This document shows positions 4,989 through 20,493 of a stretch of 64,000 nucleotides of DNA, piece after piece (the first letter of the stretch is position 1; each line of letters starts with the position of its first letter). The notes under the pieces were generated by a model that did not search any database, was not told the origin of the DNA, and saw only the letters and a program-made list of their open reading frames with translations. The DNA comes from Sphingopyxis chilensis. Lineage in GTDB: Bacteria; Pseudomonadota; Alphaproteobacteria; Sphingomonadales; Sphingomonadaceae. Position numbers and translations under genes: made by a program. The stretch lies in NCBI RefSeq assembly GCF_035930445.1, contig NZ_CP142394.1, positions 715,501 through 779,500 of the forward strand, in the 5' to 3' direction.

Positions 4989-4992
4989 CGGC

Positions 4993-5943
4993 TCAGCCTT
5001 TCGCTTGCGCCAGCACGCCGGCGAGCGTGCGCTCGACCAGGGGCAGCTTATAGGCATTTTCGTGCGTGGTCTTGGCGCCCGCGAGCAACTTCGCGGTGAC
5101 TGCTTTCGAACCGCGCGGCAGCTCGGCCTCCGCCGCCTCGATCCGCCATGGCTTGTAGGCGACGCCGCCGAGCGCGACGCGCCCGGTGCCGTCCTCTTGT
5201 ACAACCAGCCCGACCGAGATCAGCGCGAAGGCATAGGAGGCGCGGTCGCGTACCTTGTGATAGAGATGCGTGCCGCCGATCGGTTTGGGCAAGGTCACCG
5301 CAGTAATCAGTTCGCCGGGTGCCAACACCGTTTCAAGATGCGGGGTTTTGCCCGGCGCGCGATAGAAATCGCCGAGAGGGATGGCGCGCGTCCTTCCTTC
5401 GGCGCTCATCGCTTCCACGCTGGCATCGAGCGCGCGCATTGCCACCGCCATGTCGCTCGGATGCGTCGCGATGCACGCTTCGCTGGCATCGATGATAGCG
5501 AGCGTCCGGTTGAAGCCGCCGATCGCGGCGCAGCCGCTGCCCGGTTGGCGTTTGTTGCACGGCTGGTTGGTGTCGTAGAAATAAGGACAGCGTGTCCGCT
5601 GAAGCAGATTGCCCGCTGTTGTTGCCTTGTTGCGGAGCTGTCCCGAGGCGCCGGCGACCAGCGCGCGTGAGACGAGACCGTAATCGCGGCGGATCCGTGC
5701 GTCGGCGGCAAGGTCGGTGTTGCGCACCATCGCGCCGATGCGCAGCCCGCCCTCGGGGGTCGGCTCGATCTTGTCGAGCGCGAGGCGGCTGATGTCGATC
5801 AGATGTCCGGGTGTTTCGATCTCGAGCTTCATCAGGTCGAGGAGATTGGTGCCGCCGGCGATGAAACGCGAACCCTTGGTCCGCGCGAAGGCGGCGGTGG
5901 CGGCAGCAGGCGTGTCGACCCGCTCATAGGTGAAGCTCTTCAT
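4993..5943 (-). CDS. paoB: Aldehyde oxidoreductase FAD-binding subunit (PaoB-like)
   Basis: This 316-residue protein is the FAD subunit of the same enzyme. The FAD-binding motif [13 protein letters not shown] is near residue 30, and [14 protein letters not shown] is followed by further cysteines ([12 protein letters not shown]). The extra cysteines match the 4Fe-4S-binding insertion known from E. coli PaoB and absent from most xanthine dehydrogenase FAD subunits. The C-terminal CO dehydrogenase flavoprotein domain follows. Its ATG at 5943 overlaps the stop of the iron-sulfur subunit by four bases (ATGA), so translation is probably coupled. Confidence 0.88.
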
Positions 5944-6581
5944 GCCTTCACTCCCGCCACGTCGGTTATCGCCGCGATGATATTCGAATAGGCGCCGCAG
6001 CGGCAGATATTGCCGCTCATCCGCTCGCGGATCTCGGTCGCGGTCAACGGGGGTGCTGCATTCAGGTCGGCGGTGACATGGCTGGGGATGCCGGCCTTGA
6101 TCTCGTCGAGCACCGCGACCGCCGAGCAGATCTGGCCCGGCGTGCAATAGCCGCATTGAAAGCCGTCGTGGACGACAAACGCCTCTTGCATCGCGTGCAT
6201 CTTGTCGGGTGTGCCGAGGCCCTCGATCGTGGTGATCTTCTCCCCGTCGTGCATGACCGCGAGTGTCAGGCAGCTGTTGATGCGCCGCCCGTCGGCGATG
6301 ACGGTGCACGCGCCGCACTGGCCGTGATCGCAGCCTTTTTTGGTGCCGGCGAGATGGAGATGCTCGCGCAGCGCGTCGAGCAACGACGTCCGCGTATCGA
6401 GTTCGAGGTCGCGCGCCGCGCCATTGACGTCGAGACGAACGCGGGCAGTCGGCGGTCGATCGGAGCTGGCGGAGGCGGGCGCAGCGGTCGACGGAGGGAT
6501 AATGCCCACCGTGGCGACCGAGGCGGCCCCGCCGATCAGAATGCCGCGCCGCGAAATAGGAAACTCGTCCGCTGTTGCCAT
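5940..6581 (-). CDS. paoA: Aldehyde oxidoreductase 2Fe-2S subunit with Tat signal (PaoA-like)
   Basis: The 213-residue protein opens with a twin-arginine signal ([18 protein letters not shown]), so the folded complex should be exported to the periplasm. Two 2Fe-2S clusters are visible: [12 protein letters not shown] in the ferredoxin domain, and [10 protein letters not shown] with NICRCGAY in the helical domain. It passes electrons from the Mo centre toward FAD. It is the first gene of the operon paoA-paoB-paoC. The ATG at 6581 gives the shortest reading that keeps the complete signal peptide; an upstream extension to 6677 adds no recognisable sequence. Confidence 0.9.
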
Positions 6582-6965
6582 GCTCTGTCCCCGATCATCG
6601 TCAATGCTCGCGGACTGCAGTCCCCGCGAAGCCTTGGTATATCGATACCTGATGGACCGGTGCGTTGCCGGACCCACAACAATTTATGGTTATCGTCAAA
6701 GCGTATCACAGGGGGGGCGTGAGGAGCAATCGCTTGCTTCAATAAGTTTAAACCCGGTTCCTCGCGATTTGCGGAAGGGGCTGATGAGGTGACTCGAAAA
6801 CCGGTTCGGCCCCGATTCGTCCTCCCAGCCGTAAACGCCGCTTGCCGTGAGAAGAATCATGCTATATAGTTAGTATACTAAGCAAAATGGCAACTGAAAT
6901 GAAGCTACGCGAGGTCGCTGCGCATCGGGTCGGTATCGGAGGCCGAAAACAATGATGGGGACACC
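6582..6965. other. 384-base intergenic region between paoA and leuC-like gene
   Basis: This gap separates two divergent units and is AT-richer than its surroundings. Its right part holds the operator and predicted promoter of the leuC-like gene (described separately at 6842-6881). The rest, about 6582-6840, should contain the paoABC promoter. I see an ATATCGATA palindrome near 6640 and no convincing gene or RNA. Confidence 0.6.
6842..6881 (+). promoter_or_regulatory. Promoter and palindromic operator site 1 (leuC-like gene)
   Basis: TTAGTATACTAA at 6870-6881 is a perfect 12-bp palindrome. A TTGCCG -35 at 6842 and a TATAGT -10 at 6865-6870 are 17 bases apart, so the palindrome lies directly on the -10 and start site, where a repressor would block transcription. 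Closely similar copies occur at four other promoters in the next 12 kb. The GTG of the leuC-like gene is 84 bases downstream, so there is a longer leader here than at the other sites. Confidence 0.7.
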
Positions 6966-8378
6966 GTGACGGGGCCGCGCACGCTTTACGACAAGATATG
7001 GGACGCGCACGCGGTGGCGGAGGATGACGGCGAGACCTTGCTGTATATCGACCTGCATCTTTTGCACGAGGTGACCTCGCCGCAGGCCTTCGCCGGGCTC
7101 GCGGCGGCGGGGCGGGCGGTTCGGCGTCCCGAGCGCGCGCTGGCCCTGTCGGACCATAATGTTCCGACGACGGGGCAGGCGGCGGGGCCTGCCGCGGTTG
7201 CCGACAGCGAGGCGCGGGCGCAACTCGAGGCATTGGTCGAGAACACGCGGCACTTCGGGATCGAGAATTTTCCGATGGGCGACCCACGCGGCGGCATCGT
7301 CCATGTCGTCGGTCCCGAGCAGGGGCGCTCGCAACCCGGAATGACGATCGTGTGCGGCGACAGCCATACCTCGACGCACGGGGCGTTCGGTGCGCTCGCG
7401 TTCGGAATCGGAACGTCGGAGGTCGAACATGTGCTGGCGACGCAGATGATCCGCCAGCGTCGCTCGCGCAATATGCGCGTGACGATCGACGGCATGCTCG
7501 CGCCGGATATCCATGCGAAGGACCTCGCGCTGCACCTGCTTCGCCGGATCGGGGTCGATGGCGCCACGGGACATGTCATCGAATATGCCGGGCAGACGGT
7601 CCGCCTGCTATCGATGGAGGCGCGGATGACGCTGTGCAACCTGAGCATCGAGATGGGCGCGCGCGCCGGGCTGGTCGCGCCCGATGCGGCGACCATCGCC
7701 TATCTGCAGGGCCGACCGGCGGCGCCGAGCGGCGAGGCATGGGAGGAGGGCCTGGCCCGCTGGGCGGCGTTGGCAAGCGATGTCGGAGCGGCATTCGACC
7801 GCGAGTTGCAAATCGATGCGCGAGAGGTGCGGCCGATGGTCACCTGGGGGACCAACCCGTCGCAGGTCGTCGCGATCGACGATCCCGTTCCCGATCCTGC
7901 TACGCTCGACGATCCCGACGCGCGCGCCGCCGCGGCACGCGCGCTCGTATATATGGATCTGGCGCCGGGGGCATCGATCGCCGGTCAGCGGCTCGACCGC
8001 ATATTCATCGGCAGTTGTACCAACAGCCGGATCGAGGATTTGCGCGTCGTGGCGGACGTCGTGCGCGGCCGCCGTGTCGCGCCGCACATCCGGGCGATGG
8101 TCGTGCCGGGATCGGGGCTGGTCAAAAAACAGGCCGAGGAAGAGGGCATCGCCGATACGCTCCGCGCCGCGGGGTTCGACTGGCGCGAGCCCGGCTGTTC
8201 GATGTGCGTCGGCATGAACGCCGACCGGCTCCGGTCCGGCGAGCGCTGCGCCGCGACGTCCAACCGTAATTTCGAGAACCGGCAGGGGCGCGGCGGGCGC
8301 ACGCACCTGATGAGTCCGGCGCTCGCGGCGGCGAGTGCGATTGCTGGCGTAATCGCGTCGCCGGCGATGCTCGACTAG
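6966..8378 (+). CDS. LeuC-like aconitase-superfamily dehydratase large subunit
   Basis: The 470-residue product has every LeuC hallmark: [32 protein letters not shown], and the 4Fe-4S ligands C351 (GSCTNSR), C411 and C414 ([10 protein letters not shown]). Family members isomerise hydroxy-dicarboxylic acids such as isopropylmalate by dehydration and rehydration. The start is a GTG at 6966 after a GGGGA ribosome-binding stretch; nearby ATGs are out of frame. Unlike biosynthetic leuCD, the small subunit is not co-transcribed: it lies convergently and the stops overlap by four bases. Placement in a MarR-type regulon with catabolic genes suggests a degradative substrate, which is inference; leucine biosynthesis cannot be excluded. 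Confidence 0.85.
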
Positions 8379-8959
8379 GTCGACGCCTCGAACCGTGCGA
8401 TGGCGTCGGCGTGGCGCAGCGTGCGGTCGATATCGTCGAGCCCCTCCATCAGAACGTGGCGGTCGACGGGGTCGATATCGAAAGCGATCGTCTCGCCGGA
8501 GGCAAGGCGGATGCGCTGCGCTTCGAGGTCGACTTCGATGGGCGCATATTGCGCATTTTCGAGCGCGCTGCGAAGACGCGCGCAGCGTTCGTCGGGCAAG
8601 CGGATCAGCAGCAGCCCGTTCTTGCGCGCATTGCCCGCGAAGATGTCACCGAAACTAGGCGCGATGACGCAGCGAATACCGAAATCGGTCAATGCCCAAA
8701 CCGCATGTTCGCGCGACGATCCGCACCCGAAATTGCGATCGGCCACCAAAATCTGCGCGTTGCGGCACGCGGGCCGGTTGAGGATGAAATCCGTGCGTTC
8801 GCGGCCGGTTTCGTCGAACCGTAGCTCGCGAAACAGATGCTGGCCGAGGCCCGAACGCGTCAGCGCCTTCATATATTGCGCCGGAATGACCATGTCGGTG
8901 TCGACATTGACCAGCGCTAGCGGTGCCGCGACCGCTTTCACCCGAATGAATTTTTGCAC
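8375..8959 (-). CDS. LeuD-like dehydratase small subunit
   Basis: At 194 residues it matches LeuD in length and carries the swivel-domain motifs [15 protein letters not shown] and the active-site loop [15 protein letters not shown], both intact. It should pair with the LeuC-like large subunit encoded convergently. The start is GTG at 8959, preceded at good distance by GGAGGCGG. Its own copy of the regulon palindrome lies 16 bases upstream. The stop shares the sequence CTAG with the leuC-like stop, so the two TAG codons overlap on opposite strands. Confidence 0.85.
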
Positions 8960-9015
8960 ACCGCCTCCATTAGCTTAGTATTCTAAGTATATTGATTGGC
9001 GAATCTTGTCCAACA
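8955..9015. promoter_or_regulatory. Divergent promoters with operator site 2 (leuD-like / marR)
   Basis: The palindrome TTAGTATTCTAA at 8975-8986 (with flanking C and G extending it to CTTAGTATTCTAAG) sits between the leuD-like gene and the MarR gene. On the reverse strand TTGGAC and TATACT are 16 bases apart; on the forward strand TTGCAC and TAGTAT are also 16 apart. Both -10 elements overlap or abut the palindrome, so a bound dimer could repress both genes, including the regulator itself. Confidence 0.65.
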
Positions 9016-9144
9016 TTATCGCGAAGTTGGAACGGCAACCGGATGCAAGGTGGCGACGAAGATGGTTGCCGCGTGAACCTTCGCGTCCTAAGATTTATCC
9101 CGGCGCGGACCGGCGTTGCGGCGCCGCGACAGGGGAGCAGGGTT

Positions 9145-9651
9145 TTGGCGAAGAAAACACAGGATTATCGGCATCCCGCCGAATATTATACCGATCCTGA
9201 AAACAGCATCGGCTATCTGGCGCGCGTCGTCTTTCGTTCCTTTTCACGGTTGCTCGAGCGCCGCACGCTGACGCATGACGTGTCGGCGGGGCAGTGGCGT
9301 TTCCTGCGCCAGCTATGGCGCGAGGACGGTATTACCCAGCGTGAACTCAGCGAACGCGTCGGCATGCGTGAGCCGACGACGGTCGTGGCGCTGAAGGGGC
9401 TCGAAAAGGCCGGACTGATCACGCGCAAGAAAACGACCGATGATCGGCGGAAAACCTTCATCTACCTGACCCCGCACGCCAAGAAGCTCGAACTGATCCT
9501 TGCGCCGATGAACGCCGAGATTCACGAGATCGCCACCAAGGGCATGAGCGACGAGGAGGTCGAGGTGCTGCAGGGGTTGATGCGCCGCGTGATCGATAAT
9601 CTCGCGGACGAAACGCGCAAGCTGTCCGTGCTGTCGGACATCAAGGCCTGA
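9145..9651 (+). CDS. MarR-family transcriptional regulator
   Basis: The 168-residue product has the winged-helix core of MarR proteins: VSAGQWRFLRQLW, the recognition region LSERVGMREPTTVVALKGLEKAGLI and the wing KKTTDDRRKTFIYLT. MarR dimers bind short palindromes and usually release them on binding a phenolic or CoA-type ligand. I chose a TTG start at 9145 because GGGGAGCAGGG precedes it and the length fits the family; in-frame GTG 9073 and TTG 8992 are possible. It is downstream of operator site 2 and is the leading candidate for the protein that reads the five palindromes. Confidence 0.82.
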   Translation: MAKKTQDYRHPAEYYTDPENSIGYLARVVFRSFSRLLERRTLTHDVSAGQWRFLRQLWREDGITQRELSERVGMREPTTVVALKGLEKAGLITRKKTTDDRRKTFIYLTPHAKKLELILAPMNAEIHEIATKGMSDEEVEVLQGLMRRVIDNLADETRKLSVLSDIKA

Positions 9652-9661
9652 TCGCTTGCCC

Positions 9662-9696
9662 TTGCTTTCCCGCGCCGCAATAGGTTAGTATTCTAA
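9662..9696 (+). promoter_or_regulatory. Promoter and operator site 3 (FMN reductase gene)
   Basis: TTAGTATTCTAA at 9685-9696 lies 21 bases before the ATG of the reductase gene. A TTGCTT at 9662-9667 and TAGTAT at 9686-9691 form a plausible promoter with an 18-base spacer, the -10 being inside the palindrome. Confidence 0.65.
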
Positions 9697-9717
9697 CTAT
9701 TGTGTCCGGGAGGGAAA

Positions 9718-10293
9718 ATGACCAGCATCGCCGTCATCGTCGGTAGCACCCGCGAAGGGTCCTTCAATCGCGCCCTGGGCGAACTCGCCGCGGCAAGCTT
9801 GGAGGCGCAGGGCGCGCGTGTTACGCGGGTTGATCTCGCGGCGTTCGACTTGCCGCTCTATTCGGCGGCCCTTGAAGCGAATGCTTTTCCGGCCGGGGCG
9901 GTGAAGCTCAAGGATGTGTTTGCCACGCAGGACGGGCTCTTGTTCGTGTCGCCAGAATATAATGGCTCGCTGTCGCCGCTGCTCAAGAATGCCATCGACT
10001 GGGCATCGCGGCCGACCGGCGACGAGGGGCTTGTCGCGCTGACCGCCTATCGCGGCAAGGCTGCGGCGATCATGTCGGCGTCGGTCAGCCTGTTCGGCGG
10101 GTTGCGCGGGCTGATGCATCTGCGCCAGATATTGTCGACGATCCAGATGATCGTGATCCCCGAGCAGGTCGTCGTCCCCAACGCGCACGCCGCCTTTGCC
10201 GAGGATGGTAGCCTCAAAGAGACGTTGCCGGCTTCGCTCGTCGACATGACGGCGGGGCGGCTGATCGCCGTCGCGAAGGCGCTTGCAGCCTAG
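9718..10293 (+). CDS. NAD(P)H-dependent FMN reductase
   Basis: A 191-residue flavodoxin-fold protein with the FMN-phosphate loop VGSTREGSFNRAL at the N-terminus and the family motif SPEYNGSLSPLLKNAIDW near residue 80. Members reduce FMN, quinones or chromate with NAD(P)H and often supply reduced flavin to a monooxygenase, though none is visible nearby. The ATG at 9718 follows GGGAGGG. It is single-gene under operator site 3, and its TAG stop overlaps the stop of the convergent second MarR gene by four bases (CTAG). Confidence 0.85.
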   Translation: MTSIAVIVGSTREGSFNRALGELAAASLEAQGARVTRVDLAAFDLPLYSAALEANAFPAGAVKLKDVFATQDGLLFVSPEYNGSLSPLLKNAIDWASRPTGDEGLVALTAYRGKAAAIMSASVSLFGGLRGLMHLRQILSTIQMIVIPEQVVVPNAHAAFAEDGSLKETLPASLVDMTAGRLIAVAKALAA

Positions 10294-10742
10294 CGATTGC
10301 GCGAAGTGGCCGGCGCGCGCGCGATATTGTCGCCCCAGTCGGCCTCGAGCGCCGTAAGCAGCGCGTCGAACTTGTCCTGGCCGAGGCGGGCGGCGATCTG
10401 CGCGGTGAGCGCATCCATCGAACGCTGCGCATCCTTGCGCATGCGCGCGCCAAGGTCGGTCAGCGACACGACCATGTGACGGCGATCGCCGGGATCGACC
10501 TCGAGCTGAACGATGCCGAGCTTCACCATCTGGTTGATCGTGCTGTGAATTGCCTGTCGCGATACGCCCAGGTTGCGCGCGATGTCCGACGGTCGGACGA
10601 TGCCGCTGACGATGTTGGTCATCACCATCGATTGGGGGCGGTTGACGTCGGGCCAGCCATGATCGTGGAGCCGCGCCTGTAGCCCCTCGTCGAGCCAGCA
10701 GAACCGTTGGAACAGCGCGATGATAAGCTGGTTGGTGCGCAT
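10290..10742 (-). CDS. Second MarR-family transcriptional regulator
   Basis: The 150-residue protein has a winged helix with IVRPSDIARNLGVSRQAIHS as the probable recognition unit, followed by MVKLGIVQLEVDPGDRRHMVVSLT as the wing. It is only distantly similar to the MarR protein at 9145, so the two may sense different ligands. It is divergent from the acyl-CoA ligase operon; operator site 4 lies between them, about 105 bases from this ATG. Whether this protein or its neighbour binds the shared palindrome cannot be told from sequence. Confidence 0.85.
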   Translation of the reverse strand: MRTNQLIIALFQRFCWLDEGLQARLHDHGWPDVNRPQSMVMTNIVSGIVRPSDIARNLGVSRQAIHSTINQMVKLGIVQLEVDPGDRRHMVVSLTDLGARMRKDAQRSMDALTAQIAARLGQDKFDALLTALEADWGDNIARAPATSRNR

Positions 10743-10829
10743 ATGACGCTATGTTTGCCCCTGTTGCCGGCGGGGTGCCGACGGCGTCACGCTAGAAGAG
10801 CGATGCGGGCGAAGCAAGGCTGAGCGGCG

Positions 10830-10858
10830 TTGCAAAGGCAAAATACTTAGTATACTAT
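10830..10858 (+). promoter_or_regulatory. Promoter and operator site 4 (acyl-CoA ligase operon)
   Basis: TTAGTATACTAT at 10847-10858 differs from site 1 only in the last base. TTGCAA at 10830-10835 and TACTAT at 10853-10858 are 17 bases apart, placing the -10 inside the palindrome. The first gene of the operon starts 31 bases downstream. Confidence 0.65.
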
Positions 10859-10888
10859 CTATTGCAACAATTGGGGAGAGAGGACCGC

Positions 10889-12523
10889 ATGGACGGATTG
10901 ATACAGAATGTGCCGCTGACGGTCGACCGGATCATCGACCATGCGGCGAACTGGCACGGCTCGCGCGAGATCGTGTCGCGCGATGCCGAAGGGCGCGTCA
11001 CCCGTTCCACCTATGCCGACATCCACGCCGACGCGAAGCGCGTGTCGAACGCGCTTGCCGCCGAAGGCATCAAGCCGGGCGACCGCGTCGCGACGATGGC
11101 GTGGAACGGCGCACGGCACCTCGCCGCCTGGTATGGCGCGGCGGGGATGGGGGCGGTGCTCCACACGCTCAACCCGCGGCTTTTCCTCGAACAGATCGCC
11201 TATATCGCGAAACACGCCGGCGACCGGCTGCTGATCGCCGATCCTGCCACCGCCGATCTGGTGGAGCAATTGCTGCCGCAGGTGCCCTCGATCGAGAAGG
11301 TGATCTTCTTCTGCGATCGGGCATCGTTGCCGCGGACGAGCTTTGCGGCGGTGGCGTTCGACGACTGGATCGCGGGGCATTCGACGGAATATGACTGGGG
11401 AAGCTTCGACGAAAATGCTGCCTGCGGGCTTTGCTATACCAGCGGCACGACGGGCAATCCCAAGGGTGTGCTCTATTCGCACCGCTCCAACTATATTCAT
11501 GCGCTGATGACGCTCCAGCGCGACGCGCTCGCCCTGTCGGCGCGCGATACGGTGCTGCTCGTCGTGCCGATGTATCACGCCAATGCGTGGGGCGTCGTTT
11601 ATTCGGCGCCCGCGGTCGGAGCAAAGCTGGTGCTTCCGGGGCAGCGGATGGACGGCGAATCGATCTACAATCTGATCGAGGCCGAGGGCGTGACCTATTC
11701 GGCCGCGGTGCCGACCGTGTGGCAGATGCTGCTCCAGTATATGCAGGAAAACGGCAAGCGTTTCACGACCCTGCAGCGCGTGACGATCGGTGGCTCGGCG
11801 TGCCCCGAATCGATCATCCGCACCTTCCGCGATGATTATGGCGTCGACGTCATCCAGGGCTGGGGCATGACCGAAACCTCGCCGCTCGGCACCGTGTCGG
11901 TGCCCAATGCGCCGGTTGCCGCGAAGTCGGACGACGAACAGATGGCGTATAAGCTCAAACAGGGCCGGCTGCTCTGCGGGCTCGAGATGAAATTGGTCGA
12001 CGATGCCGGAAACCCTGTGCCGCATGACGGGAAGACACCCGGACGGCTGATGATCAAGGGGCCGACGATTGCGCGCGGCTATTATGGCGGAGAGGGCGGC
12101 GAGGTGCTCGACGCCGAGGGCTTTTTCGACACCGGCGACGTCAGCACGATCGACGGTGAGGGCTATATGCAGATCACCGACCGCGCGAAGGATGTCGTCA
12201 AATCGGGCGGCGAATGGATCAGCTCGATCGAGATCGAGAATATCGCGATGGGGCATGATGCGGTCGCCAACGCCGCGGTCGTCGGCATCGCGCATCCCAA
12301 ATGGGACGAGCGCCCGATCCTGTTGTGCCAGTTGAAGCCCGGTTGCGACGCTTGCGCCGACGATCTTAAATCCTTTCTCGATGGCAAGATCGCGCGCTGG
12401 TGGATGCCCGACGATGTGTTGTTCGTCGAGGAAATCCCGCTCGGACCGACGGGCAAGATCGACAAGAAGGCGATCCGTGCCGGGCTTGAGGGGTATAAGC
12501 TGCCTTTCGAGGTTAGCCGCTGA
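10889..12523 (+). CDS. Acyl-CoA ligase (AMP-forming), DmdB/medium-chain type
   Basis: This 544-residue ANL-superfamily enzyme activates a carboxylic acid as acyl-AMP and then acyl-CoA. The ATP motif CYTSGTTGNPKGVLYSHRS is near residue 180, GWGMTETSPLG near 330, and the C-terminal hinge and lysine region are DRAKDVVKSGGEWISS and GPTGKIDKKAI. The N-terminal run VATMAWNGARHLAAWYG with HTLNPRLFLEQIAYI resembles medium-chain and 3-methylthiopropionate ligases (DmdB). The ATG at 10889 follows GGGGAGAGAGG. It heads a probable operon through the hydroxyacid dehydrogenase at 16870. The true acid substrate is unknown. Confidence 0.87.
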   Translation: MDGLIQNVPLTVDRIIDHAANWHGSREIVSRDAEGRVTRSTYADIHADAKRVSNALAAEGIKPGDRVATMAWNGARHLAAWYGAAGMGAVLHTLNPRLFLEQIAYIAKHAGDRLLIADPATADLVEQLLPQVPSIEKVIFFCDRASLPRTSFAAVAFDDWIAGHSTEYDWGSFDENAACGLCYTSGTTGNPKGVLYSHRSNYIHALMTLQRDALALSARDTVLLVVPMYHANAWGVVYSAPAVGAKLVLPGQRMDGESIYNLIEAEGVTYSAAVPTVWQMLLQYMQENGKRFTTLQRVTIGGSACPESIIRTFRDDYGVDVIQGWGMTETSPLGTVSVPNAPVAAKSDDEQMAYKLKQGRLLCGLEMKLVDDAGNPVPHDGKTPGRLMIKGPTIARGYYGGEGGEVLDAEGFFDTGDVSTIDGEGYMQITDRAKDVVKSGGEWISSIEIENIAMGHDAVANAAVVGIAHPKWDERPILLCQLKPGCDACADDLKSFLDGKIARWWMPDDVLFVEEIPLGPTGKIDKKAIRAGLEGYKLPFEVSR

Positions 12524-12548
12524 ACCAAAATCATAAAAAGGAGAGACA

Positions 12549-13679
12549 ATGATGGACCCGAACGGGATCGAGGGACTGGACGCGCAATTCATCGGGCGGG
12601 TGTCGCCGACCGCGCCGCGCATCCACGCGGGCGGGCATCCGTGTCAGGGCATTTACTGGACGGAGGCAGGCAGGCGGCCGAAGGTCGCGATCATCGCCAC
12701 CCATTATAATGTCGATTTCAAGGAACATTATATCGCGCCCTGGTTCGCGCGGCAGGGCTTCGGCTTTCTGGGCTGGAACACGCGCTATCGGGGCTTCGAG
12801 GACCAGTTCCTGCTCGAACATGCGGTGCTCGACATCGGCGTCGGCATGAAGTGGCTGAAAGAAGAGGCCGGCGTGGAGCAGATCGTTATCCTTGGCAATT
12901 CGGGCGGCGGCTCGCTGATGGGCGCCTATCAGGCCGAAGCGATTGCGCCGACGCTGACCGACCGGCTGCCGGCGGTTGGGCAGGATGCTCTGGCCGAACT
13001 GGTGAAGGGTGACCTCTATATCAGTTTCAACGCGCATCAGGGGCGCCCCGAGGTGCTCACCGACTGGATGGACGCCTCGGTGATCGACGAGAATGATCCG
13101 GTCGCCACTGACCCCGAACTCGACCCGTTCAACCCCGACAACGGCCCGCCTTATTCGGAGGAGTTCATTGCCAGATATCGCGCCGCCCAGCGCACCCGCA
13201 ACCAGCGCATCACCGATTGGGCGAAGGCCGAGCTGAAGCGGCTGAACGATGCGGGCATTCCCGACCGCATCTTTCCGATGTTCCGGTGCTGGGGCGATAT
13301 CCGCTGTGTCGATCCGGCGATCGACCCGTCGGATCGCAAGCCCAACTGGTGCTATCGCGGCGATCCGGCAACCGCGAACCGTACGCCGAGCATCGGCCGC
13401 GCCAACACGATCAAGACCTGGCTCAACATGTGGAGCCTCGAAACCTCGCCGTGCCAGGGCCAGCCGCATCTCGCCAAGCACGACACGCCGGCGCTCGTCG
13501 TTCAGGGCACCGCCGATACCGGCGTCTTCCCGAGCGACGCACGCAAAATTTTCGATTTCCTTGGAAGCAGCGACAAGAGGCTCGAACTGATCCCCGGCGC
13601 GCATTATTTCGAGGACTCGATCGCAGAGCGCCGGAATGCCGCCAATCTGGTCGGCGCATGGATCAGGGAGAAGCTCTGA
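12549..13679 (+). CDS. Alpha/beta-fold hydrolase
   Basis: The 376-residue protein has an alpha/beta-hydrolase core with nucleophile elbow LGNSGGGSLMG (serine near residue 119), an acid loop VVQGTADTGVFPSDA and a terminal IPGAHYFEDS histidine, so the triad looks complete. A long insertion, about residues 140-300, with several tryptophans and cysteines forms a large cap. Family members cleave esters, thioesters or C-C bonds. It follows the ligase by 25 bases with GGAGAGACA before the ATG, suggesting it hydrolyses an intermediate of the same pathway. No specific family name is recognised. Confidence 0.75.
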   Translation: MMDPNGIEGLDAQFIGRVSPTAPRIHAGGHPCQGIYWTEAGRRPKVAIIATHYNVDFKEHYIAPWFARQGFGFLGWNTRYRGFEDQFLLEHAVLDIGVGMKWLKEEAGVEQIVILGNSGGGSLMGAYQAEAIAPTLTDRLPAVGQDALAELVKGDLYISFNAHQGRPEVLTDWMDASVIDENDPVATDPELDPFNPDNGPPYSEEFIARYRAAQRTRNQRITDWAKAELKRLNDAGIPDRIFPMFRCWGDIRCVDPAIDPSDRKPNWCYRGDPATANRTPSIGRANTIKTWLNMWSLETSPCQGQPHLAKHDTPALVVQGTADTGVFPSDARKIFDFLGSSDKRLELIPGAHYFEDSIAERRNAANLVGAWIREKL

Positions 13680-13680
13680 C

Positions 13681-14658
13681 GTGACGGCGAATGCCGACAT
13701 CATCGACGCATTGCGCGCCGCCGGACTGGTGGGCGAGGGCGATGTCGTCCTGTCGCCGCTGACCGGCGGTGTGTCTTGTGACGTGTGGAAGGTCGAGACG
13801 CCGTCGGGGTCGATCGTCGTCAAGCGCCCGTTACCGCAGCTTCGCGTCGCCGCCGAATGGCACGCGCCGGTCGAGCGCGGGACGAGCGAAGTGCGCTGGC
13901 TCAAGCGCGCGCGCGGCGTCGATCCGGGGATGGCGCCCGAGGTGCTCGCCGAACTGCCGGGCCACGCCTTCGCGATGCGTTTCCTCCCCGACTGCCCGGT
14001 GTGGAAGGACGAACTGATGGCGGGCCGCGTCGATATCGGTTTTGCCGCACATGTGGGGCAGGGGATCGCTGCGGTCCACGCCGCGACCGCGCACAATGAG
14101 GGCGATCGCACCGATTTTCCCAACGACGAGATGTTCCGGGCGCTGCGCGTCGATCCCTTCCTGCTCCATGTCGCGCGACTGGATAGCGAACTGGCGTTTG
14201 CGCTGACCGCGCTCGCGGACGACGTCTCATCGCGCAAGATCGCGCTCGTCCATGGCGACGTCAGTCCCAAGAATATCCTCGTCAGCCGCGCTGGCCCGGT
14301 GTTCCTTGATGCCGAATGCGCGGTCTATGGCGATCCGGCCTTCGACCTCGCCTTTTGTACGACGCATCTGCTGCTCAAGGCGGTGTGGTCTGGCGAGGCA
14401 CGGCTGAACGATGCCGCGGCGGCGCTCGTCGCGGCCTATCGCGCGGCCATCGGCTGGGAGGACGCCGGCGGCCTGCTGCTCCGCGCGGGCAAGCTTGCGG
14501 CCGCGCTGCTCCTCGCCCGCGTCGAGGGCAAGTCGCCTGCACCTTATCTGACCGATCCCGAACATAAGCGGATCGTGCGCGATCAGGCGCGCGCGCTGAT
14601 CATGGCGCCGCAACCGATCGACGCGCTCGTCGCCAACTGGAAAAGGACTTCTCCATGA
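13681..14658 (+). CDS. APH-family (aminoglycoside phosphotransferase-like) small-molecule kinase
   Basis: The 325-residue product has the protein-kinase-like fold of the APH/choline kinase group: an N-terminal SPLTGGVSCDVWKVE loop, IVVKRPLP as the ATP lysine strand, catalytic HGDVSPKNILVS and the metal-binding strand VFLDAECAVYGDPAFDLAF. Such kinases phosphorylate hydroxyl groups of small molecules. The start is a GTG at 13681, one base after the preceding stop, and the end overlaps the enolase paralog by four bases (ATGA). That coupling suggests the phosphorylated product is passed to the enolase-like enzyme; drug resistance is an unlikely role here. Confidence 0.8.
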   Translation: MTANADIIDALRAAGLVGEGDVVLSPLTGGVSCDVWKVETPSGSIVVKRPLPQLRVAAEWHAPVERGTSEVRWLKRARGVDPGMAPEVLAELPGHAFAMRFLPDCPVWKDELMAGRVDIGFAAHVGQGIAAVHAATAHNEGDRTDFPNDEMFRALRVDPFLLHVARLDSELAFALTALADDVSSRKIALVHGDVSPKNILVSRAGPVFLDAECAVYGDPAFDLAFCTTHLLLKAVWSGEARLNDAAAALVAAYRAAIGWEDAGGLLLRAGKLAAALLLARVEGKSPAPYLTDPEHKRIVRDQARALIMAPQPIDALVANWKRTSP

Positions 14659-15953
14659 CTTCGCGTATCGCCTCCGTCACCGGCCGCCAGCTCTGGGATT
14701 CGCGCGGTCGGCCCACCGTTGAGGCTGAGGTGGTGCTGGAATCGGGCGCGGTCGGTCGCGCGATCGCACCCGCGGGCGCCTCGCGCGGCGCGCACGAGGC
14801 GATCGACTTGCGCGACGGGGGCAAAGCCTTCGGCGGTTTTGGTGTCAATCGCGCGGTCGCGGGTATCGGTTCGGAGATCGCGGGCGTGATCACCGGCATG
14901 GACGCCCGCGATCAGGCCGCGATCGACCGCGTGCTGTGCGATCTCGACGGTACGCCCAACAAGGCGCGGCTCGGTGCGAACGCCATCGTCGCCGTGTCGA
15001 TGGCGGTGCTCCACGCCGCGGCGGCGGACGCGCGGGAGCCGCTCTGGCGCTATCTCGCGGACGGGCAAAGGGTGCGCGTGCCGCTGCCCGAGATCCAGAT
15101 TTTCGGCGGCGGCGCGCACGCCGGGCGGCGCACCGACGTGCAGGATTTCATGGTGATGTGCCCGAAAGCGGGCAGTTTTCGCCGCGCGCTCGAGATCACC
15201 GACGATGTCTATCGCGCCGCTGGCCGGCTGATGGAAACCAAGGGACCGCTCTCTGGTGTCGCCGACGAAGGTGGCTGGTGGCCCAATTTCGCGTCGAACG
15301 AGGATGCGCTCGATACGCTGACCAAGGCAATCGAGGCGAGCGGGCATCGCGCGGGCGACGAGGTATTTATATCGCTCGACATCGCCGCGAACGAACTCGG
15401 CGACGCGGGCGGCTATGATCTCGCGCTCGACGACGGGCGGCTCTCGGGCGAAGAAATGGCGGCGCGCATCATTGAATGGGCCGGACGCTATCCGATCCTG
15501 TCGATCGAGGATCCCGCCGGACAGGACGATTGGAAGACGATGGCCGCGGTCACCGCGGCGATCGGCGGCACAGTGCAGATCATCGGCGACGACGCGCTCG
15601 TCACCAATGCCGAACGTGTCGCTCGCGCGGGCGAGGCGGCGGCGTGCAACGCGGCCCTGATCAAGGTCAATCAGGTCGGTACGGTGACCGAAGCGAAGGC
15701 CGCGCTCGATGCGGCGGTCGCGCGTGACTGGGGCGCGATCGTTTCGGCGCGGTCGGGCGAAAGCGAGGACATCACCATCGCGCATCTCGCGACCGGCTGG
15801 GACGCGGGGCAATTGAAGGTCGGCAGCTTCACCCGCTCTGAACGCATGGCGAAGTGGAACGAGATGCTGCGGATCGAGGAGGCGATGGGAAGCGACGCGG
15901 TGTTCGCGGGCTTTTCGGCCTTCGCCGGTGCGATCGGGGGAGTTGCGGCATGA
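14655..15953 (+). CDS. Enolase paralog with altered active site
   Basis: At 432 residues it aligns with glycolytic enolase over its whole length. Retained are the Mg ligands D242, E285 and D312, the base K337, K388, H155 and R366-S367. Changed are positions that enolase keeps nearly invariant: SHRSGE reads SARSGE (A365 in place of the histidine), IQEFM reads VQDFM (D164 for Glu), and the mobile loop GASTG reads GASRG. Enolase dehydrates 2-phosphoglycerate to PEP; these changes suggest a different phosphorylated hydroxy acid. Translation is coupled by ATGA on both sides, to the kinase and to the 2-hydroxyacid dehydrogenase. Weak residual enolase activity is possible. Confidence 0.8.
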   Translation: MTSRIASVTGRQLWDSRGRPTVEAEVVLESGAVGRAIAPAGASRGAHEAIDLRDGGKAFGGFGVNRAVAGIGSEIAGVITGMDARDQAAIDRVLCDLDGTPNKARLGANAIVAVSMAVLHAAAADAREPLWRYLADGQRVRVPLPEIQIFGGGAHAGRRTDVQDFMVMCPKAGSFRRALEITDDVYRAAGRLMETKGPLSGVADEGGWWPNFASNEDALDTLTKAIEASGHRAGDEVFISLDIAANELGDAGGYDLALDDGRLSGEEMAARIIEWAGRYPILSIEDPAGQDDWKTMAAVTAAIGGTVQIIGDDALVTNAERVARAGEAAACNAALIKVNQVGTVTEAKAALDAAVARDWGAIVSARSGESEDITIAHLATGWDAGQLKVGSFTRSERMAKWNEMLRIEEAMGSDAVFAGFSAFAGAIGGVAA

Positions 15954-16870
15954 TCGTCCTCCACGCACGCCCGAGCCCGGGTTTTCGCGAAGCGGTCGAT
16001 GCGATCTTCGGCGCGGGTGTCGTGACCCACGTTGATGAAGCCGAGCCGCTTGACGGCGTGGCGGGAGAGATTACCGCGTTGCTCCATGTGCTGACGCCGG
16101 TGACGCGTGAGTTCATCGCTTCGGCGCCCAAGCTGAAGCTGATCCAGAAGCTCGGCGTCGGGGTGAACACGATCGCGCTCGATGCCGCTCGCGACCATGG
16201 CGTCGCGGTGTGCAACATGCCCGGCACCAACAGCCAGGCGGTCGCCGAAATGGCGCTGTCGCTGATGATGGCGGTGCTCCGCCGGACCTGCTTCTTCGAC
16301 GCGCGGACGCGAGCGGGCGAGGGCTGGACCGCCGATCCGTCCGAGCTAGATCAGGTTGGCGAAATCGGCGGGCGGACGGTCGGACTCGTCGGTTTCGGTA
16401 ATTCCGCGCAGTTGCTCGCGCCGGTGCTGGCGGCGCTGGGGGCGAAGCTTGTCTACACCGCGCGCCGTCCGCGCGACGTGCCCTATGAATTCTTGCCGCT
16501 CGACCGGCTGCTTGCGGAAAGCGACATCGTCTCACTGCACATACCGCTCACCGACGAAACGCGCGCCGGCATCGATCCCTTCGCGATGAAGAAGGGTGCG
16601 GTACTGGTGAACACGGCGCGGGGCGAACTGGTCGATGAGGCGCGGCTGGTCGAGGCGCTGACCTCGGGGCATCTGCGCGGCGCCGGGCTCGACGTGTTCG
16701 CCGAAGAACCGCTACCACGCGGTAACCCGCTGCTCGGCCTGTCCAACGCGGTAATCGCCCCGCACATCGCCTGGCTGACCCCCGAAACGCTCGTGCGTAG
16801 CCTGACCGTCGCGCAGGAAAATTGCCGCCGGCTGGCGGCGGGCGAGGCGTTGCTGCATCAAGTCGTATGA
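15950..16870 (+). CDS. D-2-hydroxyacid dehydrogenase (NAD(P)-dependent)
   Basis: The 306-residue protein belongs to the D-isomer-specific 2-hydroxyacid dehydrogenases, which interconvert 2-oxo and D-2-hydroxy acids. The Rossmann motif reads VGLVGFGNSAQLLAP, where the third glycine is alanine. The catalytic residues are all present: Arg in NTARGELVDE, Glu in DVFAEEPLP and His in APHIAWLTPE. The ATG at 15950 overlaps the enolase paralog stop (ATGA). Phosphoglycerate and hydroxypyruvate reductases are relatives, which fits a role next to a kinase and an enolase. A REP-like palindrome follows and probably marks the end of the operon. Confidence 0.85.
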   Translation: MIVLHARPSPGFREAVDAIFGAGVVTHVDEAEPLDGVAGEITALLHVLTPVTREFIASAPKLKLIQKLGVGVNTIALDAARDHGVAVCNMPGTNSQAVAEMALSLMMAVLRRTCFFDARTRAGEGWTADPSELDQVGEIGGRTVGLVGFGNSAQLLAPVLAALGAKLVYTARRPRDVPYEFLPLDRLLAESDIVSLHIPLTDETRAGIDPFAMKKGAVLVNTARGELVDEARLVEALTSGHLRGAGLDVFAEEPLPRGNPLLGLSNAVIAPHIAWLTPETLVRSLTVAQENCRRLAAGEALLHQVV

Positions 16871-16877
16871 AACACCC

Positions 16878-16970
16878 CGTCATTGCGAGGCGCGTAGCGA
16901 CGAAGCAATCTCCAGCTATCGGCATGCCGTGTCGCAAGCTGGAGATTGCTTCGCTGCGCTCGCAATGACG
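16878..16970. repeat. REP-like inverted repeat, family A copy 1
   Basis: CGTCATTGCGAG at the left end is mirrored by CTCGCAATGACG at the right, with inner arms GAAGCAATCTCCAGC and GCTGGAGATTGCTTC. The same arrangement occurs at 17697-17781 and 36897-36981. No T-run follows, so it is a palindromic repeat unit and only possibly a terminator. Confidence 0.85.
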
Positions 16971-16989
16971 AAGCATAAGGATTGAACCC

Positions 16990-17682
16990 ATGCCTCTCCC
17001 CATCGTCCTCATCACCGGCCAGCTTCTGACCGAAGCCGTCTGGCAGCCCTTGCTCGATGCGTGGCCCGACCGCGAAGTCATCGTCGCCGACAATCAAAGC
17101 GACGACACGATCGAGGGGTTTGCGCAGCGCCTGCTCGACAACGCCCCGCTGAAATTCGTGCTGATCGCCCATGCGATGGGCGGCTTTGTCGCGTTCGAGG
17201 TGATGCGCCACGCACCCGAACGGGTCGCGAAGCTCGCGCTCATCTCGACGCTTGCCTCAGCCGACGGCCCGGCGCAGACCGCGCGGCGGCAGGGTTATAT
17301 CGACCTGGTGACAAACGGCCGCTTCGACCAGGTCGTCGAAGAGCGCATCCCGATCCTCTTCCCCGAAGAGAAACGCGACGACGAACGGCTGCTCGGCATT
17401 GCGCGGCGGATGGCGGCGGACACCGGCGCCGACATCTTCCTCGCGCAGCAGCGCGCGATCATGGCGCGCATCGACAGCCGCCCGCGGCTCGGCGAGATTG
17501 CGGTGCCGACCTTGCTGATCTGGGGCGAGAAGGACGGCATCACCAGCCGCGCGCACCATGACGAGATTTTAGAGGCGATTGCGGGCGCGCGGTTGGAGGC
17601 GATTCCTGGCGCCGGACATCTGCCGACAGTTGAGGCGCCCGAAGTAGTGGTCCCGTTGCTGACCGAGTTCATGGACGGATAG
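16990..17682 (+). CDS. Alpha/beta-fold protein lacking the nucleophile serine
   Basis: The 230-residue protein has the outline of an alpha/beta hydrolase: an N-terminal LPIVLITGQLLTEAVWQP strand, IWGEKDGIT with the acid, and PGAGHLPTVEAPE with the histidine. At the nucleophile elbow the expected G-x-S-x-G reads AHAMGG, with Ala62 where the serine should be; the codon is GCG. It may be inactive, or a relative that does not use a serine nucleophile. It lies between two family A repeats, so it is probably its own transcription unit, in the same direction as the upstream operon. Confidence 0.75.
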   Translation: MPLPIVLITGQLLTEAVWQPLLDAWPDREVIVADNQSDDTIEGFAQRLLDNAPLKFVLIAHAMGGFVAFEVMRHAPERVAKLALISTLASADGPAQTARRQGYIDLVTNGRFDQVVEERIPILFPEEKRDDERLLGIARRMAADTGADIFLAQQRAIMARIDSRPRLGEIAVPTLLIWGEKDGITSRAHHDEILEAIAGARLEAIPGAGHLPTVEAPEVVVPLLTEFMDG

Positions 17683-17696
17683 CCATCGTCATTGCG

Positions 17697-17781
17697 AGCG
17701 AAGCGAAGCAATCTCCAGCTATCGACCTCGCGTAAGGTTGATAGTGGAGATTGCTTCGTCGCTACGGTCCTCGCAATGACG
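17697..17781. repeat. REP-like inverted repeat, family A copy 2
   Basis: The outer arms CGTCATTGCGAG and CTCGCAATGACG and inner arms GCAATCTCCA and TGGAGATTGC repeat the family A pattern. It lies between the stops of two convergent genes. Confidence 0.85.
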
Positions 17782-17788
17782 AGTGGAG

Positions 17789-18841
17789 CTATTTCAACTC
17801 CGCCCGCACCATCGCCGTCCCATCGACCATCGCCTTCAGCTTCGCCAAGCTATGCTCGCGGCTGTGATATTTCATCCCGCAATCGGGCGCGATCCAAAGC
17901 CGCTCGGCGTCGACGTAACGCAGCGCCTCGCGGATGCGGTCCGCGACCACCTCGGGCGTTTCGACCTCGGGAATCGACAGGTCGAGCACGCCGTACATGA
18001 TCGTCTTGGTCGGCAGTTCGGTCAGAATGGCAGGGTCGAGCCCGGGCTGCGCCGCCTCGATCGAGATGACGTCGATCGCCGACGCTTCGAGTTCGGCGAG
18101 GAAATCATAGGCCTTGGGCTTCGGCCCCGTCGCGCCCGCGCCGTGGTGGACCATCGCATAGCCGAAACAGATGTGGAGCGCGGTCGTGCCACCGACGCCG
18201 TCGAGCGCGCGGTTGATCGCCTCGATCGCGTAGGCGTTCGCCTCGGCGGCGCGCGCCTGCAAATAGGGTTCGTCCAGCTGGACGACATCGACCCCGGCCG
18301 CGAACAAATCCTTGACCTCGGCGTTGACCGCATCGGCATAGTCCATCGCGAGTGCGCGCGCGTCGGGATAATAGCCATTCTCCGCCTGCTGCGTCATCGT
18401 GAAGGGACCGGGCAGGGTGAGTTTCACCGGTTTCTCCGAATGACGCCGCAGGAAGGCCGCGTCCTGTGCCTCGATCGGCGTGACGCGGCGGATCGGGCCG
18501 GAGACGAGCGGCACCGGATTGGCGTTGCCCGTGCGGTCGATCGCGGTGCCATGCTTCTCGCGGTCGATCCCCGACAGCGCGGTCGCGAGGCGGTTCGAAT
18601 AGCTTTCGCGGCGCATCTCGCCGTCGCCGACGATGTCGATGCCGACCTCTTCCTGATCGCGGATCGCCATCAAGGTCGCGGCCTCTTGAGCGTCGGCGAG
18701 CCAGGGTTCGGGGATGCGCCACAGCGTCTCGGCGCGCACGCGCGGGGGCAGGCTGGCCTTCAGTTTTTCGCGATCGATCAGCCAGTCGGGCTGGGGGTAG
18801 CTTCCGACGATCGTCGTCGGCAATATGGGGCGGTCGAACAA
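17789..18841 (-). CDS. MetE C-terminal-domain-like (cobalamin-independent methionine synthase II) protein
   Basis: The 350-residue product corresponds to the catalytic C-terminal half of MetE alone. It begins with TTIVGSYPQPDWL and has the zinc-binding His and Cys of LHICFGY near residue 223 and the Cys of APDCGMKYH near 320; VQLDEPYL is also conserved. Relatives include short methionine synthases and thiol alkyltransferases such as epoxyalkane:CoM transferase. I prefer the TTG at 18841, which has GAGAGG at good distance; a TTG two codons upstream at 18847 is possible. It is divergent from an acyl-CoA ligase and shares operator site 5 with it, so it is probably part of the catabolic regulon. 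Confidence 0.8.
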   Translation of the reverse strand: MFDRPILPTTIVGSYPQPDWLIDREKLKASLPPRVRAETLWRIPEPWLADAQEAATLMAIRDQEEVGIDIVGDGEMRRESYSNRLATALSGIDREKHGTAIDRTGNANPVPLVSGPIRRVTPIEAQDAAFLRRHSEKPVKLTLPGPFTMTQQAENGYYPDARALAMDYADAVNAEVKDLFAAGVDVVQLDEPYLQARAAEANAYAIEAINRALDGVGGTTALHICFGYAMVHHGAGATGPKPKAYDFLAELEASAIDVISIEAAQPGLDPAILTELPTKTIMYGVLDLSIPEVETPEVVADRIREALRYVDAERLWIAPDCGMKYHSREHSLAKLKAMVDGTAMVRAELK

Positions 18842-18859
18842 GGTCAATCCTCTCGATTT

Positions 18860-18892
18860 TTGGGCTGGCCAAACATTTGCTTAGTATTCTAT
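18860..18892. promoter_or_regulatory. Promoter and operator site 5 (second acyl-CoA ligase / MetE-like gene)
   Basis: TTAGTATTCTAT at 18881-18892 is the fifth copy of the palindrome. TTGGGC at 18860-18865 and TAGTAT at 18882-18887 are 16 bases apart and point toward the ligase gene, whose ATG is 36 bases downstream. It is about 40 bases from the divergent MetE-like start, so both may be controlled. Confidence 0.62.
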
Positions 18893-18927: not shown

Positions 18928-20493
18928 ATGATCGATCTGGAGGCCATCCGGACGCTGGCGGATATTCCGGCGGCGCAGGCGCGGGTCAGGGGCAGCGCGA
19001 CCGCGGTGAAGTTCGGCGAGCGCGAGACGAGTTTTGTCGAACTCGATGCGCGATCGAACCGCGTCGCGAACGCGCTGATCGCGTCGGGCGTGGCTCCCGG
19101 CGACCGTGTTTCGGCGCTGACCAAGAACCATGACAGCTGGTACCCGCTCTTCTTCGGCACCGCCCGTGCGCGCGCTTGCTTGGCGCCCATCAACTGCCGT
19201 CTCGCGCCTGCCGAAATCGGCTTCATTCTGGGCGATGCGGAACCGAAACTGTTGTTGGTCGGCGAAGATTTCTTTGATTCTGCGCTTGCTGCGGTCGCGA
19301 ACCTTCCGGCGCGGCCGCGCCTGATCGCGCTGTACGGCGAACATCCGGCGTTCGAGCCGTTCGATGCGTGGCTGGGCGAGGCATCCGATGCCGCCATCGT
19401 CGATCCGCCGCGGCTAACCGACGATGTGCTCCAGCTCTACACCAGCGGCACGACCGGCCTGCCCAAGGGCGTCGTGCTGACCAACGCCAACTATCGCACC
19501 TTCCTTGAGGCCGCGACCCAGGTTGATGGCTTTGCCTATGGCGAGGACGAGACGGTGATGATCGTCATGCCCTTGTTTCACGTCGCGGGCACCAATGTCA
19601 GCTTCTCGGGACTCGCGCAGGGCGGGCGGCTGGTGCTCGTCAAGGATTTCACGGCCGCCGACGCGGTACGCATGATGCGCGAGGAGAATGTCGCGCACGC
19701 CTTCCTCGCGCCCGCGATGATCCAGATGATGCTGCTTCAGCCCGATGCGGCCGCGAGCGCCTATCCGCAGCTCAAGTCGATCGCCTATGGCGCGTCGCCT
19801 ATCGCGGAAGATGTGCTGCGCCGCGCGCGCGCGACCTTTGGCTGCGACTTCGTGCAATTCTACGGCATGACCGAGTCCGCCGGCGGCGGTTCGTACCTGT
19901 CGCCGAGCGCGCATGACCTGCCGGGTAAGCTCACCTCATGCGGTACGCCGTGGCCGGGCGCGGCGATGGCGATTCTCGATGGTGAGGGGCGCGAACTCGG
20001 CGATGGCGAGATCGGCGAGATTGCGATCCGCGGCGGTATCGTGATGAAGGGCTATTGGAACCGTCCTGCTGCGACCGAAGAGACGCTTGCGGGCGGCTGG
20101 CTCCACACCGGCGATGTCGGTTACCGCGACGCCGACGGCTTCTACTACGTCCACGACCGGATCAAGGACATGATCGTGTCGGGCGGCGAGAATGTCTATC
20201 CGGCCGAGGTCGAGAGCGCGATCATGGGCTGCCCCGGCGTTGCCGACGTCGCGGTGATCGGCGTGCCCGACGACAAATGGGGCGAGGGGGTGAAGGCGCT
20301 GGTGGTGCCGGCGGCGGGTGTGACGCTCGATCCCGCCGATATCGTCGCGTGGGCGCGGACGCGGATCGCGGCGTACAAGGTGCCGAAAAGCATCGAGTTC
20401 ATCGACGCGCTGCCGCGCAATCCGTCGGGCAAGGTGCTGCGCCGTGAACTGCGTGCCCCTTATTGGGAAGGGCGCGATCGCGCGGTGGGGTAA
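18928..20493 (+). CDS. Acyl-CoA ligase (AMP-forming), fatty-acid type
   Basis: This 521-residue ANL enzyme has LYTSGTTGLPKGVVLTNANYR near residue 170, FYGMTESAGGG, the hinge DRIKDMIVSGGENVYPAEVE and the C-terminal NPSGKVLRREL lysine motif. It should form an acyl-CoA from a free acid and ATP. It is clearly distinct from the ligase at 10889, so the regulon has two activation steps or two substrates. The ATG at 18928 follows GGGAGAG. It is the first gene after operator site 5 and ends before a family B repeat. Confidence 0.87.
   Translation: MIDLEAIRTLADIPAAQARVRGSATAVKFGERETSFVELDARSNRVANALIASGVAPGDRVSALTKNHDSWYPLFFGTARARACLAPINCRLAPAEIGFILGDAEPKLLLVGEDFFDSALAAVANLPARPRLIALYGEHPAFEPFDAWLGEASDAAIVDPPRLTDDVLQLYTSGTTGLPKGVVLTNANYRTFLEAATQVDGFAYGEDETVMIVMPLFHVAGTNVSFSGLAQGGRLVLVKDFTAADAVRMMREENVAHAFLAPAMIQMMLLQPDAAASAYPQLKSIAYGASPIAEDVLRRARATFGCDFVQFYGMTESAGGGSYLSPSAHDLPGKLTSCGTPWPGAAMAILDGEGRELGDGEIGEIAIRGGIVMKGYWNRPAATEETLAGGWLHTGDVGYRDADGFYYVHDRIKDMIVSGGENVYPAEVESAIMGCPGVADVAVIGVPDDKWGEGVKALVVPAAGVTLDPADIVAWARTRIAAYKVPKSIEFIDALPRNPSGKVLRRELRAPYWEGRDRAVG

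Follow-up and report, generated by a model that had tools for sequence, protein, structure and literature searches.

A 12-bp palindrome, TTAGTATWCTAW, lies just upstream of genes at five places in a 64-kb stretch of the Sphingopyxis chilensis genome (contig NZ_CP142394.1; hereafter the window, in whose positions coordinates are given) and once more beside a receptor gene elsewhere in the same genome. Judged from sequence, the regulon that these sites define is real, conserved and larger than first stated, and it is probably a catabolic regulon based on acyl-coenzyme A (acyl-CoA) ligases and repressed by MarR1, one of two MarR-type proteins encoded within it. The original prediction had described five promoters; that proposal is supported, the same promoters bearing the site in relatives, and the regulon extends beyond it to a sixth perfect site at a remote cluster. 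Below, C1 denotes the whole-genome contig, G a genome of the genus and L a fetched locus.

A pattern scan of the window found the exact motif at the five positions that had been predicted:

6870 to 6881: operator 1, TTAGTATACTAA, a perfect palindrome, upstream of the leuC-like gene, with a −35 (TTGCCG) and a −10 (TATAGT) element adjoining
8975 to 8986: operator 2, TTAGTATTCTAA, between leuD and marR1
9685 to 9696: operator 3, TTAGTATTCTAA, upstream of the FMN (flavin mononucleotide) reductase gene
10847 to 10858: operator 4, TTAGTATACTAT, between marR2 and acs1
18881 to 18892: operator 5, TTAGTATTCTAT, between the metE-like gene and acs2

No sixth exact copy was found in the 64 kb, again as predicted, and 100 dinucleotide shuffles gave a mean of 0.00; allowing up to two mismatches returned only the same five places, with 0.60 matches expected. 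In the whole genome, a single contig of 3,952,559 bases, the motif occurs exactly at six places, five of them within one 12-kb stretch and all six upstream of a gene in one of two clusters, and the reversed motif, used as a control, has no exact match. The random genome-wide density that the original prediction had named as the outcome that would speak against a regulon was thus not found. At up to two mismatches the motif is rarer genome-wide (41 matches) than its reversed control (133), so loose matches carry no weight alone and are mostly background elsewhere in the genome; weak sites were retained only if conserved in relatives. The sole remaining one-mismatch place in the genome, C1:417556 (L007), precedes an acyl-CoA-dehydrogenase-like gene by 37 bases and was not counted as a regulon site; a 92% homologue of the gene (L149:11862-13894) adjoins marR1 in G034 without a site.

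By eye, the −10 and −35 elements that had been proposed are plausible at all five operators, the likely promoter TTGCCG-17-TATAGT at 6842-6870 (operator 1) being an example. A strict consensus scan passes only that of operator 1, and its overall yield (3 found vs 1.8 expected) is not above chance.

The sixth exact palindrome (C1:2484482) stands 82 bases upstream of a match to a TonB-dependent receptor gene, in a cluster 1.75 Mb from that of the window. The receptor gene is followed by SnoaL-like and glutathione S-transferase (GST) genes, and divergent from it are a second GST gene and one for a DUF3237 protein. A receptor search of 41 genomes gave 18 matches in 17 of them; the exact palindrome lies upstream of all 16 orthologues of at least 58% identity (16 Sphingopyxis genomes) and of neither of two paralogues at 42%. 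In at least nine relatives (G004, G005, G006, G010, G014, G019, G020, G023 and G024) the receptor site is 10.3–12.3 kb from an acs2-type site on one contig, and in G025 the distance is 65 kb. The operator has thus been retained here despite the separation of the clusters. A check for weaker sites covered 10 loci: the receptor/DUF3237 pair was called in seven, with a perfect site in 7/7, and the HMG-CoA-lyase-like/CoA-transferase (CaiB/HMGL) promoter of the receptor cluster carries a weaker site, with two mismatches, in 6/6 loci where that divergent pair was called. The Phenylobacterium receptor in L075 shows no site.

The gene content of the window cluster is as originally described, including two MarR genes, with two corrections: the putative ligase operon has six genes (10889-17682), not five, and leuD, present along with leuC as predicted, is convergent with it, the two overlapping by four bases (8375-8378). 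The genes are:

6966 to 8378, plus strand: LeuC-like isomerase large subunit, a paralogue (TIGR00170, 679 bits, cut-off 560)
8375 to 8959, minus strand: LeuD-like small subunit, convergent with leuC (TIGR00171, 215 bits, cut-off 116)
9145 to 9651, plus strand: MarR1, TTG start, the likely regulator (PF01047, 57 bits; PF12802, 46 bits)
9718 to 10293, plus strand: NADPH-dependent FMN reductase-like protein, fmnR (PF03358, 137 bits)
10290 to 10742, minus strand: MarR2, divergent from the ligase operon (PF12802, 42 bits)
10889 to 12523, plus strand: acyl-CoA ligase 1, acs1 (PF00501, 276 bits; nearest PDB chains 6ihk/6ijb)
12549 to 13679, plus strand: alpha/beta hydrolase 1, hyd1 (weak PF12146)
13681 to 14658, plus strand: APH-type small-molecule kinase, aph (PF01636, 70 bits)
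14655 to 15953, plus strand: enolase paralogue with E168D and H373A, eno (TIGR01060, about 460 bits, over the cut-off)
15950 to 16870, plus strand: D-2-hydroxyacid dehydrogenase, hadh (PF02826/PF00389)
16990 to 17682, plus strand: alpha/beta hydrolase 2, hyd2, PcaD-like (below cut-off)
17789 to 18847, minus strand: MetE-like protein, C-terminal catalytic half only (3rpd, 1xdj)
18928 to 20493, plus strand: acyl-CoA ligase 2, acs2 (scanned from 18925)

The site is conserved at these promoters across relatives. MarR1-baited loci in named genomes numbered 63, of which 56 (L022-L077) were used and the seven most distant left out; being interrelated and baited with MarR1, the 56 are not independent. 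They hold, at up to one mismatch, 168 sites in 107,398 intergenic bases compared with 2 in 914,271 coding bases. Among assessable loci the site is found upstream of leuD in 33/39, marR1 in 37/53 (within 350 bp, leaving 16/53 without), fmnR in 34/42, marR2 in 37/39, acs1 in 40/45, metE in 37/39, acs2 in 30/33 and leuC in 9/30, divergent neighbours counting one common site for both genes. Inside the operon it precedes hyd1 in 2/47 loci and aph (0/45), eno (0/46), hadh (0/46) and hyd2 (0/45) in none. The low leuC count is explained in part by relatives such as L024, in which leuC comes third in a row after APH-like and acyl-CoA-dehydrogenase-like genes and the site precedes the first gene. Genes were called in these loci with our own codon-based script, which failed to call marR2 in two loci (L058, L063) although tblastn finds it there. 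Most Sphingomonadales loci preserve the order acs1-hydrolase-APH kinase-enolase-hydroxyacid dehydrogenase-hydrolase; in Phenylobacterium the kinase, enolase, dehydrogenase and hydrolase stay together, with acs1 and hydrolase 1 apart. An unbaited motif search of 40 genus genomes gave 193 hits vs 12 for the control, both figures being sums of forward and reverse hits in which palindromes count twice.

Comparison across genomes suggests that MarR1 is the likely reader of the site. Its recognition region is conserved, and the protein is identical (100%) to that of Sphingopyxis sp. JAI108. Orthologues of MarR1 occur in 35/40 genus genomes and of MarR2 in 33/40, and the site is present in 34/35 MarR1-positive vs 1/5 MarR1-negative genomes (Fisher p 2.7e-4, kinship not corrected). 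Beyond the genus, the site stands upstream of marR1 in Phenylobacterium (L074-L076) and Novosphingobium (L064) and upstream of acs1 in Novosphingobium (L066, L067), and in these loci the sequence read near the site, as opposed to the whole genome, contains no MarR2 orthologue; L067 encodes a 42% relative of MarR2 at a distance of 8 kb, and MarR2 itself (79%) is present in Novosphingobium sp. MD-1 (L055). The evidence outside the genus leans to MarR1 because these Phenylobacterium and Novosphingobium stretches keep the site without a MarR2 orthologue. Paralogous loci in G014, G028 and G004 encode a 54–56% MarR1-like protein, with the palindrome about 4.7 kb distant.

Several observations weigh against a regulon read by MarR1. 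Six of the 56 MarR1 loci (L053, L068, L070, L071, L073 and L077) have no site. G034 and G026, which have MarR1, no MarR2 and no cluster genes beside MarR1, contain 0 and 1 exact sites, respectively; G034 has a one-mismatch site at the place expected for the fmnR promoter, which would fit loss of the cluster. One exact site is present in MarR1-negative G029, and in the paralogous loci a MarR2-like protein (38%) is also encoded, closer to the palindrome than the MarR1-like one. Finally, the site occurs in 33/33 MarR2-positive vs 2/7 MarR2-negative genus genomes (p 3.2e-5, kinship not corrected), and the genus data do not separate MarR1 from MarR2. We nevertheless regard it as unlikely that MarR2 (10290-10742) instead of MarR1 is the repressor reading the palindrome, or that the two share it. 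This alternative draws on the genus association, on operator 4, which is among the blocks conserved across 37 loci in the stretch from marR2 to acs1, and on the MarR2-like proteins alongside the paralogous palindromes, whereas L074-L076, L064 and L066 show no MarR2 in the sequence read near the site and L067 only its 42% relative. Moreover, the presence of MarR2 tracks that of the whole cluster, which confounds its association with the site in the genus.

Two other explanations do not concern the choice between the MarR proteins. The palindrome might be a promoter element or the site of an unrelated factor and no MarR operator at all, and by eye it does overlap or adjoin −10-like hexamers (TAGTAT, TATAGT). 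If it were a general promoter element, many copies would be expected, and it has six exact genome copies only, at one gene set, and is associated with MarR1 across the genus, so this explanation is highly improbable. Scarcely more credible to us is a role in central metabolism, for which the cluster would supply redundant, jointly regulated copies of leucine, methionine and glycolytic enzymes; such an arrangement would be compatible with control by MarR1. LeuC and LeuD do pass the curated equivalog cut-offs for isopropylmalate isomerase, the enolase passes its own, and the named ones among the 120 enolase orthologues listed are called phosphopyruvate hydratase or enolase. However, the genome has a canonical enolase and a canonical leuCD elsewhere: a separate leuC at C1:15325, 57% identical, is followed by a leuD-like gene on the same strand, and the window copy is therefore probably dispensable for leucine synthesis. 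The enolase has changed catalytic residues in every relative read (65/65). The MetE-like protein is half-length, with 352 amino acids, one of the two MetE domains and scores below the cut-offs (TIGR01371, 120 of 930 bits), and a central-metabolic set would not be expected to include ligases, hydrolases, a receptor and GSTs.

The most probable model is control by MarR1, a dimer of which would bind TTAGTATWCTAW, overlapping or adjoining the likely −10 region, and block transcription. The repressed set would comprise marR1 itself, leuC, leuD, the FMN reductase gene, the six-gene ligase/kinase/enolase operon, metE/acs2 and the distant TonB-receptor cluster. The substrate would enter through the TonB receptor and be activated by acs1 and acs2 to a CoA thioester, and this thioester or a related aromatic metabolite would probably release MarR1. 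The operon would then hydrolyse, phosphorylate (APH kinase) and dehydrate, or eliminate from (altered enolase), a hydroxy-acid intermediate.

The genome encodes a canonical enolase (673 bits) and the window paralogue (about 460 bits), identical at 182/423 aligned residues. Residues were placed by motif and are given in yeast numbering. In the window enolase and 46 orthologues, S36, T40, E168 and H373 are replaced by A, R, D and A in 47/47, and S39, H159, E211, D246, E295, D320, K345, R374, S375 and K396 are kept in 47/47. In a survey of 385 genomes of the class, made without MarR1 as bait, 20 genomes besides this one have a 56–64% relative (E 1e-145 or better). Residues were counted in 18 of these 20 class loci, L212 and L219 being dropped with nothing called there: E168D and H373A are found in 18/18 and S36A in 17/17 with a residue at that place, and T40 is variable (R 6, T 7, M 3, I 1). 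Over all relatives read, E168D and H373A are thus present in 65/65 and S36A in 64/64 with the residue, compared with E168D/H373A in 0/21 canonical enolases (20 usable of 30 fetched loci and the genome's own copy), which keep E and H. In PMC4922564, E168, E211, K345 and K396 are given as the catalytic residues of enolase; the first is D in all 47 and all 18 sequences, and the other three are kept. According to PMC4450660 the base is lysine 345 and the acid glutamate 211, and serine 39 holds a second magnesium.

The APH kinase (41–49%) is adjacent to the altered enolase in 14/18 class loci, and a hydroxyacid dehydrogenase of 56–59% is found in 3/18. The 20 class stretches contain no exact palindrome and one one-mismatch place (L215), so the kinase/enolase pair is wider than the regulon. 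The pair with D168 and A373 is scattered in Alphaproteobacteria (L202-L221), by eye with transporter, FAH-like and Gfo/Idh-like neighbours. Residues that bind phosphate, metal and carboxylate are retained in the altered enolase, which is changed on the leaving-group side, and the changed pocket would suit a C3-substituted 2-phospho acid. We tentatively suggest that the APH-type kinase and the D168/A373 enolase could carry out a new two-step chemistry, in which the 2-hydroxyl of a C3-substituted 2,3-dihydroxy acid is phosphorylated and the C3 group is then eliminated to give a substituted phosphoenolpyruvate; this step might be central to an undescribed pathway used by alphaproteobacteria in several contexts, here under MarR control.

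The ligases and hydrolases give less precise indications. Family models place acs1 and acs2 as acyl-CoA ligases and do not fix their substrate. The chains 6ihk/6ijb nearest to acs1 are presumably DmdB; no paper on that structure was found. A role in dimethylsulphoniopropionate (DMSP)/methylthiopropionate metabolism was considered and rejected: acs1 scores 747 bits vs a 3-methylthiopropionyl-CoA ligase cut-off of 822, and we noticed no further gene of DMSP metabolism. Lignin beta-aryl ethers and steroids were also among the candidate substrates weighed. Hydrolase 1 is highly conserved, 4243/7998 scored candidates being relatives, and its predicted model (mean pLDDT 81.9) is nearest to monoglyceride lipases and cinnamoyl esterases, at 10–16% identity among the matches listed; this structure comparison named no substrate.

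Clues to the substrate come from genes near MarR1 in relatives. L077 has an HpaH gene (385 bits, above the cut-off of 351.5) and a ring-oxygenase-like gene, an anthranilate-dioxygenase-like large subunit at 398 of 750 bits, below the cut-off. Gentisate-dioxygenase-like cupins in L073 and L077 also fall below theirs (54–57 of 442 bits), L074 encodes a Rieske protein whose C-terminal domain is of the LigXa type (PF19301, 462 bits), and a sulphatase-like gene, below the choline-sulphatase cut-off, lies near leuC or marR1 in some relatives (L138, L066). On account of the HpaH, dioxygenase-like, Rieske and sulphatase-like neighbours, the most likely substrate appears to be an aromatic acid, either free or conjugated as a sulphate or ester, and we put the chance that the substrate is aromatic at about even. 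Three points count against this assignment: the clues stem from neighbours in relatives, with no single enzyme fixing the substrate; L073 and L077, the loci with ring-cleavage genes, are themselves without a site; and the neighbours of the kinase/enolase pair elsewhere are varied by eye, so that sugar-acid or other hydroxy-acid intermediates would fit too.

Other arrangements were noted in and around these loci. A LigXa-like Rieske oxygenase, a Gfo/Idh-like dehydrogenase and an NMT1-like gene lie together near MarR1 at L074:14474-17992, L064:5887-9393, L066:4036-7548 and L067:6356-9873; the layout recalls phthalate catabolism, a reading that NCBIfam did not confirm and that we set aside. The paralogous cluster (L145:6209-12764, L146:4527-11082 and L147:7987-15619; palindrome exact in two, with one mismatch in L147) contains an FMN-reductase paralogue, a sulphatase-like gene (by eye), TonB receptors and an HsaA/HpaB-type monooxygenase, the last of which scores 244 bits in L145, below the cut-off. 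In the window, a paoABC-type molybdenum aldehyde oxidoreductase operon on the minus strand (2784-6677; PaoC 1379 bits, PaoA 366 bits) sits beside operator 1 and has no exact palindrome of its own.

MarR-controlled catabolic regulons are already known, and the novelty here lies in which genes are combined and in the altered kinase/enolase pair. The cou cluster, for example, includes an acyl-CoA ligase. CouR of Rhodococcus jostii is a p-coumaroyl-CoA-responsive MarR repressor of p-hydroxycinnamate catabolism (PMC4737184). The present system resembles it in placing a MarR protein over a catabolic cluster, release by a CoA thioester being the feature of CouR, and differs from it in having six promoters at two places and the kinase/enolase pair. 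HpaR, the regulator of the homoprotocatechuate operon (TIGR02337), ranks second among the NCBIfam models that match MarR1, at 54 bits against 67 for TIGR04472; a further link is that the MarR1 relative in L077 has an HpaH gene nearby. However, MarR1 falls far below the 121-bit cut-off and no hpa operon was seen in the window cluster region. The enolase paralogue shares full-length homology with enolase (TIGR01060) and keeps the Mg ligands, K345, K396, R374, S375, E211 and H159, in contrast to its E168D, H373A and S36A changes. The MetE-like protein is homologous to the C-terminal barrel of cobalamin-independent methionine synthase (3rpd, 1xdj) and, unlike MetE, is without the N-terminal half and below all NCBIfam cut-offs listed. 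In a literature that mostly left out subscription journals, searches by gene set found no paper, those by motif string none with a title on a MarR operator and those by topic none on this system (title and start of abstract), and within that scope the gene set is undescribed, as the original prediction had suggested.

The regulon, defined from sequence alone, joins genes that family models file under leucine, methionine and glycolysis. It predicts that these genes, together with a receptor cluster 1.75 Mb away, would be members of one pathway, and it reveals a subfamily of enolases with changed catalytic residues that databases, among the orthologues listed, label phosphopyruvate hydratase or enolase.

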